Shown one piece after another: positions 49,231 to 53,840 of a DNA stretch of 64,000 nucleotides. A model generated the notes under the pieces. It was given only the letters and a program-made list of their open reading frames with translations. It made no database searches and was not told the DNA's origin. The translations under genes and the position numbers were made by a program. Location of the stretch: NCBI GenBank assembly GCA_017461545.1, contig JAFTXP010000003.1, forward strand, positions 62,001-126,000. Reading direction: 5' to 3'. This stretch comes from Clostridia bacterium. GTDB lineage: Bacteria > Bacillota > Clostridia > UBA1212. Position 1 is the first letter of the stretch, and each line of letters opens with the position of its first letter.

Positions 49231-49776
49231 TTATCTTGTCATGTTTGTAACTGTGTTGTTATTTTCTTGTTCAGGGAGTAAATGACTGGCATTATGCTGA
49301 TCATTTTCACCGGAAATGAAGTCGTTAGAAACTTCTCCGCTGCCTCTTGTAACATCACCTACGGCATCACCGACACCTCTTGTAACATCACCTACGGCAT
49401 CACCGGCACCTCTTGTAACATCACCTACAGCATCGCCGACACCTCTTGCGGCATCACCTACAGCATCACCGGCGCCTCTTGTAACATCGCCTACGGCATC
49501 GCCGACACCTCTTGCAGTATCACCTACGGCATCACCGGCATCATCTGCAGCGTCTCCTAAATCATCACTGATTCTATCAGTAGTGTCAGGATTGTTATTG
49601 TCAGTAACCGTAGGATTATCTGTCTGCAGATTGCCTGTTGCAGTCGGGCTGCCGGTGGCATTGTTATCGTCGGGCGAGTTTTTTACTTTTCCGTCGTTCC
49701 CACCGCACGCGGCAAATGTCAGAAGCATAAAACATAAAGCTGATAAAACGGCACTTCGTTTAATCCATTTGCTCAT
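49231..49776 (-). CDS. Lipoprotein with 11-residue GDAVGDVTRGA repeats
   Basis: A 181-residue lipoprotein of unknown function. The signal peptide ends at lipobox TFAAC (Cys about 24). A Thr/Asn/Asp-rich linker leads to about seven repeats of G-D-A-V-G-D-V-T-R-G-A with A/V and D variants (about 75-145), an amphipathic pattern. The 33-bp DNA repeat could expand or contract. The ATG at 49776 is preferred (GGAGG at good spacing) over 49782. A GTGCGA/TCGCAC stem lies in the leader. Confidence 0.75.
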   Translation of the reverse strand: MSKWIKRSAVLSALCFMLLTFAACGGNDGKVKNSPDDNNATGSPTATGNLQTDNPTVTDNNNPDTTDRISDDLGDAADDAGDAVGDTARGVGDAVGDVTRGAGDAVGDAARGVGDAVGDVTRGAGDAVGDVTRGVGDAVGDVTRGSGEVSNDFISGENDQHNASHLLPEQENNNTVTNMTR

Positions 49777-49962
49777 TTGCATATCCTCCGTGCGACAAAT
49801 CGCACCGCAAAATAAAGAAGTGTCATTATTCTGACTTCGGAATGTTTACAGTGCAAAAATGCCGCATATTCTTCGTTAAAGTAGTGAAAAGCAGCACATG
49901 AGATTTTCACAGAAATATTATTGGTGCTAAAACGAAAATATATGATGTCAATAAATAACAAA

Positions 49963-49991
49963 TTGATATTGTGCTGCTCATGGAGTATAAT
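49963..49991 (+). promoter_or_regulatory. Promoter of polC
   Basis: TTGATA (49963-49968), 17-bp spacer and a perfect TATAAT (49986-49991). Transcription from about 49998 starts after the ATG at 49980, so translation must start later, at 50028. Confidence 0.7.
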
Positions 49992-50027
49992 ATTTTAACT
50001 AAAAAGCATGCGGAAACGGTGGATAAA

Positions 50028-53000
50028 ATGAATCTTCAAGGTATGGAAAATTTTAAAATTGAAAAGGTGGATATTGACCCTGACAAGAAGATATTTGTCG
50101 TTGAAATGTTCAGCGAAAAGTTTCCTATGTATAATGATTTATTTAAAATAAAAGAACAATTATGTGATACTCTCAAATGCAATAATATAAAAATTACTTG
50201 CAGATGCGGGCAACCGTTTGATGATATAGCGTCAAATTCTGCCCGCCTTAAAATATTATGGGCGAGTATTTTGCAGTATTTACAGCTCGAGCGTGTCAGC
50301 GCCTGGGCGCTGCTTAAAAACAGCACGCTTAACTATTCGGACGGAACATTTTATATTATTTCAGAAAAACATACAAAGTGTGCTTTGGAGGCATTGCGTG
50401 CAGATGCTTTCATTGACAGTTATATTTATGCCACATGGCAGATTCATCGCAGTATTGTCTTTGAGGAAAAGCAGACAGATAAAAAGCGCAGTGAAAAAGA
50501 ATCAGATGATTACGAATGCGTAACCGTTGACTTTTCATTGGACGAGTATAATAAAGTCGTTTCAAACAGAAAAGCTACCGGAACAAAAGATTATTCGGGC
50601 GGTTACGACAAAGTTTACGGCGGCTCGGGTTCACGTCCTGTCAGACGAAGCGAAGAGTACAAGGGCAGAGGCTCGGGTAAAAAAAGAAGACTTACTCCCG
50701 CAGAGGGCGAGGAGCTTCCGAAAGATTCACACGGCCGTGAGATTATAATGGGCGGTCAGATCGACGAGAAGATTGTAAAAATGCAGGACATTACTGCGGA
50801 TTCCGGTTACGTTGCCGTAAAGGGACGCGTTTTCAAAACCGAATACAAAGAGCTTTCGAGCGGTTCGTACATAGCTAATATCTGCATGACGGATGAGCTA
50901 TATTCTATAACGATAAAATTCTTCTTTGACCCGGAGGATCTGGATTTTGTAAAGAAAAGATTCAAAGACGGAAAATGCTTCATTGTCTACGGCGATGCAA
51001 ATGATGACAGATTTGCGCATGAGATAGTAATAAGAGCCAAGAGTATTGTCGAATACAAGCCGGAAGTGAGAATGGACAACGCAGAGGTTAAGCGTGTCGA
51101 ACTTCATCTGCACACAAATATGAGTGCGCAGGACGGACTTACGCGCCCTAAAGAACTGGTGGCAACTCTTGACCGCTGGGGGCATACTGCAGTTGCAATT
51201 ACCGACCACGGAGTTGTACAGGCGTACCCCGATATGTTCAATTCGGTTAAATTCAGCAAAAGCAATTTAAAGCTTCTTTACGGAATAGAATGTTACTTAA
51301 CCGACCAGCCCGGAGAGGTTACAAAAGAAGAGGCAAAAAATATTCCGAGATGGCACTGCATTATACTTGTTAAAAACCTTGTAGGACTTAAAAATCTGTA
51401 CAAGCTCATATCAAAATCTAACTTGAATTATTACTATAAACGTCCTCTCATGCCTCGTTTTGAAATTGAATCAATGCGCGAAGGTCTGATTATAGGTAGC
51501 GCATGTTCGGAGGGAGAACTGTACGATGCTATAATAAGCGGCGAGAGCGAAGAAAGACTTTTGGAGATGGCGTCGTTTTACGATTATCTTGAAATTCAGC
51601 CGATTGACAACAACCAGTATCTGCTCAGACAGGGCAGGGTTGCAAGTTCATGGGAGCTTCGTGAAATAAATAAGAGAATTGTAGAGCTCGGAGACCGCTT
51701 AGGAAAGATGACTGTTGCAACAGGCGACGTTCACTTTTTAAATCCTGAGGATGCCCTCTACAGAAACGTTATGCAGAGCGCCATGGGCTTTGATGATGCA
51801 GATATGCAGCCTCCGCTGTATCTGAAAACCACCGAGGAAATGCTCCGTGAGTTTGAATACTTAGGCGATAGGGCTTATGAGGTCGTTGTCGAAAATACAA
51901 ATAAAATTGCAGACATGATAGAGAAAATCCGACCTGTGCCGGACGGCTTCTTCCCTCCCGTCATCGAAGGCTCTGACGACAAAATCAGACAGAGTTCGTA
52001 TGACAAGGTAAAAGAAATTTACGGCGACAGAGTTCCGGACTTTGTTATGGAAAGACTTAACAGAGAGCTTGATGCGATTATCGGAAACGGATATTCAATC
52101 ATGTACCTTACTGCAAAAGAACTTGTTGCGGAATCTGCACGAAACGGATACACGGTAGGTTCGCGAGGTTCGGTAGGATCATCACTTGCGGCGTTCATGT
52201 CAGGCATTACAGAGGTTAACTCACTTCCGCCGCATTACAGATGTCCGAAGTGTTTTTACAATGAGTTCTTCTTAAACCAGGAGTATGAGAGCGGTTGCGA
52301 GCTGCCTCATAAGGATTGTCCCGAGTGCGGTACGCCGCTTGTGCGTGACGGATTTGACATACCGTTTGAAACATTCCTCGGCTTTGACGGAGATAAGGTT
52401 CCGGATATTGACCTTAACTTTGCATCTGATGACCAGCCTAATGCTCACAGATATACCGCCGTGCTTTTCGGAGAGGATTACGTGTTCCGCGCAGGTACTA
52501 TTTCAGGTCTTGCTGAGAAAAACGCGAGAGGATATGTTCTTAAATACCTTGAAAGGAAAGGTATGCAGGCGTCGGAGGCGGAGATAAACCGCTTGGCAAG
52601 CGGATTTACAGGCGTAAGAAAAACCACGGGTCAGCACCCGGGCGGCATCATGGTTATACCGAAAGACCACGATATATATGACTTTACCCCGATACAGCAC
52701 CCTGCGGACAAGACTGATTCCGACACAATAACGACGCACTTCGATTATCACTTTTTGCATGATAATATTTTGAAGCTCGACATACTCGGACACGATGGTC
52801 CTGCGATGCTCAAATATTTGGGTGACTTTACAGGTGTAGATACTACGGCGGTTGACATTGCAGATGAAAAGGTTCTTTCGCTTTTCAGCTCCGCTGAGGC
52901 TCTCAATATGGATCCGAGAGAGCTGAGGATAAATATTGAGTTCGGCACGCTCGGTATTCCCGAATTCGGAACAGGCTTTGCCATGGGCATGCTTAAGGAT

Positions 53001-53840
53001 ACAATGCCCACGACTGTTTCGGAACTTGTAAGAATTGCCGGACTTTCACACGGTACGGATGTTTGGCTCGGAAATGCTCAGGACCTTATAAAGAGCGGCA
53101 CCTGTACGCTTTCACAGGCGATATGCTGTCGTGACGATATCATGTTGTTCCTCATAAAGATGGGTATGGATAAGAAGCAGTCTTTTGTGATTATGGAGCA
53201 GGTTCGTAAAGGCAAAGGTTTAAAACCGGAACAGATAGAGGATATGATGGAACACGACGTTCCCGACTGGTACATAGAGTCGTGTAAAAAAATAAAATAC
53301 ATGTTCCCGAAGGCTCACGCTGTTGCATACGTTGTGCTTTCGCTCAGAATTGCGTGGTTTAAAGTGTATTACCCTGTTGCATATTACTGCACAAGATTTA
53401 CTCTTAAGGTCGATGAATTCGATGCGGAGAATATGATTCACGGTGTTGATAAGGCATTTATGAAGATGACCGAGATGAAAAAGATGGGCAATGCTCTGAC
53501 CGATAAGGACGACAGGCAGCTAATTATATATGAGCAGCTTATGGAGCTGTACGCAAGGGGCGTCGAATTTTTGCCTGTTGATTTATATAAATCGGATGGG
53601 GTTGTATTCCGCCCCGAAGACGGAAAAATCCGTCCGCCGTTCAGTTCACTCCAAGGTGTAGGCGCAAACGCCGCGCAGGGAATAGTCGATGCGAGGAACG
53701 ACGGCAAGGGCGAATTTATTTCAATAGAGGATTTGCGCGCAAGAGCAGGGCTCAATAAAGCGGTTATTGAAACATTGAAGAACGAAGGATGTCTTGACGG
53801 TATGCCGGAGGATGACAGACTTTCGCTGTTTGATATGTGA
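50028..53840 (+). CDS. polC: PolC-type DNA polymerase III alpha subunit lacking the exonuclease domain
   Basis: A 1270-residue replicase with PolC order: N-terminal domain, OB domain, PHP domain, zinc finger (CPKC...CPECG, about 745-775), palm with PDIDLNF (Asp793 and Asp795) and the GxGxN-type helix-hairpin-helix at the end. Canonical PolC (~1430 residues) has a 3'-5' exonuclease of ~170-200 residues inserted in PHP. Here PHP runs straight from YGIECYLTD (418-426) to WHCIILVKN (442-450) with no exonuclease. PHP metal residues look complete: HLH (360-362), ITDH, GIE, WH, Cys493 and GDVH (566-569). The ATG at 50028 follows GGTGG. Confidence 0.93.
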   Translation: MNLQGMENFKIEKVDIDPDKKIFVVEMFSEKFPMYNDLFKIKEQLCDTLKCNNIKITCRCGQPFDDIASNSARLKILWASILQYLQLERVSAWALLKNSTLNYSDGTFYIISEKHTKCALEALRADAFIDSYIYATWQIHRSIVFEEKQTDKKRSEKESDDYECVTVDFSLDEYNKVVSNRKATGTKDYSGGYDKVYGGSGSRPVRRSEEYKGRGSGKKRRLTPAEGEELPKDSHGREIIMGGQIDEKIVKMQDITADSGYVAVKGRVFKTEYKELSSGSYIANICMTDELYSITIKFFFDPEDLDFVKKRFKDGKCFIVYGDANDDRFAHEIVIRAKSIVEYKPEVRMDNAEVKRVELHLHTNMSAQDGLTRPKELVATLDRWGHTAVAITDHGVVQAYPDMFNSVKFSKSNLKLLYGIECYLTDQPGEVTKEEAKNIPRWHCIILVKNLVGLKNLYKLISKSNLNYYYKRPLMPRFEIESMREGLIIGSACSEGELYDAIISGESEERLLEMASFYDYLEIQPIDNNQYLLRQGRVASSWELREINKRIVELGDRLGKMTVATGDVHFLNPEDALYRNVMQSAMGFDDADMQPPLYLKTTEEMLREFEYLGDRAYEVVVENTNKIADMIEKIRPVPDGFFPPVIEGSDDKIRQSSYDKVKEIYGDRVPDFVMERLNRELDAIIGNGYSIMYLTAKELVAESARNGYTVGSRGSVGSSLAAFMSGITEVNSLPPHYRCPKCFYNEFFLNQEYESGCELPHKDCPECGTPLVRDGFDIPFETFLGFDGDKVPDIDLNFASDDQPNAHRYTAVLFGEDYVFRAGTISGLAEKNARGYVLKYLERKGMQASEAEINRLASGFTGVRKTTGQHPGGIMVIPKDHDIYDFTPIQHPADKTDSDTITTHFDYHFLHDNILKLDILGHDGPAMLKYLGDFTGVDTTAVDIADEKVLSLFSSAEALNMDPRELRINIEFGTLGIPEFGTGFAMGMLKDTMPTTVSELVRIAGLSHGTDVWLGNAQDLIKSGTCTLSQAICCRDDIMLFLIKMGMDKKQSFVIMEQVRKGKGLKPEQIEDMMEHDVPDWYIESCKKIKYMFPKAHAVAYVVLSLRIAWFKVYYPVAYYCTRFTLKVDEFDAENMIHGVDKAFMKMTEMKKMGNALTDKDDRQLIIYEQLMELYARGVEFLPVDLYKSDGVVFRPEDGKIRPPFSSLQGVGANAAQGIVDARNDGKGEFISIEDLRARAGLNKAVIETLKNEGCLDGMPEDDRLSLFDM

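Follow-up and report, generated by a model that had tools for sequence, protein, structure and literature searches.

An exonuclease-less PolC replicase with a complete PHP metal site in an order of Clostridia

Proofreading by PolC-type DNA polymerase III alpha is usually ascribed to its DEDDh exonuclease (Exo). A polC gene in the window analysed here, a stretch of 64,000 nucleotides from a Clostridia-class bacterium with an incomplete genome (69%, 27 contigs), encodes a protein lacking this part, which raises the question of what proofreads in such a replicase.

The open reading frame at 49971-53840 on the forward strand is full-length and encodes 1289 amino acids from a GTG start. Alternative starts are ATG 49980 and ATG 50028, the latter used in an earlier note on this DNA (1270 amino acids), whose residue numbers plus 19 give the numbering from GTG used here; no clear Shine-Dalgarno site was visible at the start candidates. 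Two PolC equivalog models of NCBIfam are matched above their cut-offs (NF001688, 1450 bits against 873; TIGR01405, 1290 bits against 1043). The Pfam order is PHP, DNA_pol3_alpha, finger and HHH_6, and the domain order OB, PHP, Pol3 and HhH, with OB N-terminal to PHP, is that of PolC, the OB match being weak and below its cut-off. The C-terminal RLSLF is probably a beta-clamp-binding motif, from its position and its resemblance to QxSLF. Upstream of the gene, the opposite strand carries genes for a dUTPase, a U32 peptidase and ZapA; downstream follows an alpha-L-rhamnosidase-like gene. Also upstream of polC on the opposite strand, positions 49231-49782 of the window encode a short predicted lipoprotein with the repeated unit GDAVGDVTRGxGDAVGD. 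The features of polC are as follows.

49971..53840, + strand: polC, exonuclease-less PolC-type DNA polymerase III alpha (ORF, Pfam, NCBIfam)
50811..51047, + strand: OB-fold domain, residues 281-359 (weak Pfam match below cut-off)
51099..51596, + strand: PHP domain, uninterrupted, residues 377-542 by Pfam, with the last ligands D586 and H588 beyond it (Pfam)
51105..51113, + strand: PHP metal ligands H379 and H381, HLH (alignment)
51132..51134, + strand: PHP metal ligand D388, S-x-x-D-G (alignment)
51207..51209, + strand: PHP metal ligand H413, TDHG (alignment)
51288..51290, + strand: PHP metal ligand E440, GIE (alignment)
51291..51353, + strand: 21-residue loop CYLTDQPGEVTKEEAKNIPRW, at the DEDDh exonuclease site of other PolCs (alignment; insertion site in PMC5636811 and PMC12592400)
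51354..51356, + strand: PHP metal ligand H462, WH (alignment)
51504..51506, + strand: PHP metal ligand C512, SAC, Cys493 in the earlier note (alignment)
51726..51734, + strand: PHP metal ligands D586 and H588, GDVH (alignment)
51981..52550, + strand: polymerase region, DNA_pol3_alpha, residues 671-860 (Pfam)
53559..53810, + strand: helix-hairpin-helix region, residues 1197-1280 (Pfam)
53817..53831, + strand: C-terminal RLSLF (sequence)

The earlier note had described a continuous PHP domain without exonuclease, and this is borne out. Pfam matches PHP in one stretch, and 21 residues separate E440 from H462, where exo-containing PolCs have approximately 202-237, the loop thus standing in place of a DEDDh Exo of about 205 residues. 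RNase_T had no Pfam match anywhere in the PolC protein, so the absence does not reflect an exonuclease placed elsewhere in it. The protein therefore lacks the hallmark of canonical PolC, a DEDDh exonuclease inserted in PHP, as does a known minority of PolCs. The metal ligands listed in the earlier note are all present, together with a ninth, D388, which it had missed. These nine (H379, H381, D388, H413, E440, H462, C512, D586 and H588) correspond to those holding three zinc ions in Mycobacterium tuberculosis DnaE1 (PMC5636811), and agree with the motif HHDHEH[C/H]DH (PMC12926913) of active PHP exonucleases of that kind.

The present protein is a natural exo-less PolC of an already known kind. 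In 2013, Timinskas et al. (PMC3919608) put the share of PolCs without Exo at 6%, almost all of these in Clostridia and Negativicutes and otherwise as a second copy in Thermotogae, which reduces the novelty of our observation. The architecture without Exo in PHP is the same and there is no difference in kind; their subgroup comprises bacteria with both PolC and DnaE1, and DnaE1 is seen in relatives of our organism, not in its incomplete genome. Compared with a canonical PolC such as that of Enterococcus faecium (9QPC), all other domains and their order are the same, but the latter carries a DEDDh Exo between PHP strands 3 and 4. M. tuberculosis DnaE1 (5LEW) shares the nine ligands, the PHP fold and a loop between the Glu and His ligands; it differs in being DnaE-type and in that its exonuclease has been demonstrated, whereas that of the present PolC is predicted. 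New with respect to Timinskas et al. are the order-wide fixation, the repeated Exo loss, the table of ligands and the lack of DnaQ-type proteins.

The loss was traced in 31 genomes of the same order, from which 30 PolC loci were fetched. Exo was absent from all 29 loci that read across the PHP junction, the spacing being 21-32 residues; elsewhere in the order, the locus of G017 (L034) lies at a contig edge and starts only within the loop, and truncation keeps the PolC of G027 from reaching the junction. In the wider class, an exo-less PolC occurs in at least 64 of the 393 genomes sampled, as counted by hand from a match list extending to about E = 1e-66. G049, with a loop of 57 residues, was recognised as exo-less on reading the sequence. 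Outside the order, exo-less families include f7, f11, f15, f25, f50, f53, f62 (one genome), f75, f84 and f87, and named carriers are Moorella thermoacetica, Desulfosporosinus fructosivorans, Selenomonas ruminantium, Anaerovibrio lipolyticus, Mogibacterium sp. and Cuneatibacter sp. The alignment across Clostridia proposed earlier thus reveals a loss that is order-wide and recurs elsewhere in the class. In several genomes of the class, DnaE was matched but PolC was not (G034, G136 (f10), G191, G207 (f65), G110, G062, G167, G235 and G261); in families f10 and f65, PolC may be absent altogether.

A FastTree phylogeny of 196 PolCs, rooted on Brevibacillus and computed with the Exo columns left out, requires 15 changes of Exo state, at least 10 of them forced by well-supported branches, and a second tree of 108 rows under an IQ-TREE mixture model requires 18, at least nine of them forced. 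A single origin of exo-less PolC was accordingly rejected. When a gain costs twice a loss, the trees give 16 losses (FastTree; two of them catalytic decay) and 20 losses (IQ-TREE) with no gains; equal costs give eight losses and seven gains, and 13 and five, respectively. Repeated regain of Exo is nevertheless disfavoured, since distances between Exo sequences correlate with those of the core (r = 0.74) and the loops differ between clades in length (12-57 residues) and sequence, as would be expected of separate deletions. The changes are read most simply as repeated loss.

The state of PHP was compared with that of Exo. All 90 complete exo-less PolCs retain 9/9 ligands, so these are conserved in relatives, as the earlier note had asked. 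The nine fall within the 32 invariant columns among 220 PHP columns in these proteins (hypergeometric P = 1e-8), a position that is not due to chance; exo-containing PolCs have seven invariant PHP columns, or 18 without family f32. Among 99 PolCs with Exo catalytic motifs, PHP is intact in 89 and broken in 10, seven of the latter from family f32, in which L104, L110-L112, L116, L118 and L123 keep Exo and have lost several ligands and L115 keeps all nine. Exo motifs are retained in all 10 PHP-decayed proteins, motif II of L118 being atypical, and PHP decay (four to six events) was thus seen only where Exo is retained. The converse case, a catalytically dead Exo, was accompanied by an intact PHP in 3/3 PolCs of the main set and in 14/14 of a wider sample. 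The latter comprises 13/13 sampled species of family f41 (L236-L239, L241-L244, L246, L247, L249, L250 and L253) and G213 of family f26 (L248), in which an insert of 220-347 residues occupies the Exo site with all or nearly all DEDDh residues replaced, and PHP has 9/9 ligands. In PMC12926913 the inactivated part of Pol III alpha is stated to be PHP rather than the DnaQ proofreader; these proteins run counter to that. An independent-pairs sign test of PHP loss against Exo state gave p = 1 and a crude branch-length estimate (32.6/56.9)^6 = ~0.035; with four to six PHP-loss events, the phylogenetic test is too small. The direction of the pattern is consistent with two proofreaders that would cover for each other. 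As 89 of the 99 exo-containing PolCs also have all nine ligands, ligand conservation alone is no proof of a new role after Exo loss.

An AlphaFold2 model of residues 375-1289 (mean pLDDT 89.4, pTM 0.82) found its best Foldseek match in 3F2B, the PolC of Geobacillus kaustophilus (TM-score 0.92 by query length); the fit to M. tuberculosis DnaE1 5LEW is looser (776 residues, rmsd 4.0 Å, Z 30.9). The 3F2B construct likewise lacks Exo, but there it was removed by the experimenters for crystallisation (PMC12592400). G. kaustophilus PolC has been reported to lack PHP exonuclease and to have one mutated ligand (PMC5636811), and our alignment places an Asn at the position equivalent to D586. In M. tuberculosis DnaE1, D226N abolishes the exonuclease (PMC5636811). 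The PolC cited as the negative case thus has a defective PHP site, and its result is not transferable to the present PolC.

Other enzymes could take over from a lost Exo. PF00929 (RNase_T/DnaQ) proteins were found neither in the source genome (69% complete) nor in the same-genus genome G007 (95% complete), and none was detectable in 21 of the 31 genomes of the order, G007 included, by a search that was not perfectly exhaustive, G020 having been called differently in two runs. Proofreading there has accordingly not been handed over to a stand-alone DnaQ. The Pol I 3'-5' exonuclease was rejected as a substitute: the order yields mostly weak, incomplete PF01612 matches, in frames of about 860-940 residues that, by their size, look like Pol I. 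DnaE1 was not found in the incomplete source genome; relatives do have it, and all 20 that were read carry the nine PHP ligands. In G007, dnaE (L216) falls into two frames, of 700 and 485 amino acids, probably through an assembly frameshift. MutS matches exceed the cut-off in 26/31 genomes of the order, so nothing suggests that mismatch repair is missing from this lineage.

We consider it probable that Exo was deleted in the ancestor of the order and that the PHP domain of PolC proofreads. The protein would be an ordinary replicative PolC in which deletion of the inserted DEDDh exonuclease left a short loop in PHP; a mispaired 3' end would pass this shortened loop, as in tuberculosis DnaE1, and be hydrolysed at the PHP site. 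From the conserved ligands, this site is predicted to be active as a 3'-5' exonuclease that proofreads in vivo, and proofreading in cis is the most likely reading. To our knowledge, no PolC PHP domain has demonstrated exonuclease activity, and the ligands might instead serve stability or pyrophosphate hydrolysis. A replicase without proofreading, in which the PHP site serves structure or pyrophosphate hydrolysis while fidelity is left to base selection and mismatch repair, would accord with the presence of MutS, with the lower stability of M. tuberculosis metal-ligand mutants (PMC5636811) and with the structural and proposed pyrophosphatase roles of PHP in E. coli DnaE (PMC5636811, PMC4822814). 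However, five of the nine ligands are changed in E. coli DnaE (PMC5636811) and several are missing from PolCs of f32, proteins that presumably remain folded and functional; folding as such therefore does not require the ligands, and we regard this explanation as unlikely. We give just as little credence to proofreading in trans by the PHP of DnaE1, or to DnaE1 doing most of the synthesis, with the PolC PHP a bystander. The complete ligands of DnaE1 in relatives favour it, and the PolC Exo of Bacillus complements DnaE3 in trans (PMC12926913), so exchange between two polymerases is possible, but it leaves unexplained why the ligands of PolC PHP are invariant in 90/90 complete exo-less proteins when PHP can decay with Exo kept, as in f32.

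Takeover by a separate DEDDh protein is very improbable: one or two RNase_T proteins do occur in 10/31 genomes of the order, but they are unlike one another (several in genus g3 have long basic tails, and others are short or have other N-terminal parts), and, besides the source and same-genus genomes, about 40 of the 64 exo-less genomes of the class sample, counted by hand, have none. An assembly or gene-calling artefact, for which the incompleteness of the source genome might speak, can practically be dismissed, because Exo is absent wherever PolC spans the junction, in separate assemblies of the order, among them that of a 91%-identical congener, and in other lineages with isolate genomes such as M. 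thermoacetica and A. lipolyticus. Of the interpretation offered in the earlier note, the suggested shift of proofreading to PHP is thus supported by comparison (9/9 ligands in 90/90 complete exo-less and 14/14 dead-Exo PolCs), the alternative of a DnaQ-like protein is unsupported for this lineage, and the implied novelty is lessened (PMC3919608).

More broadly, we lean somewhat towards the view that the PolC PHP is a genuine proofreader which in most Clostridia duplicates the function of the DEDDh Exo, and that neither would be given up unless the other is still there; whole lineages whose Exo was deleted or has decayed in place would then have PHP as their only replicative proofreader, with no detectable DnaQ-type protein. 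PolC is the target of the late-stage antibiotic ibezapolstat (PMC12592400). Exo losses that recur while PHP is kept every time offer natural test cases for proofreading by the PHP domain of PolC, and the cultivated M. thermoacetica and S. ruminantium are sources of such enzymes.
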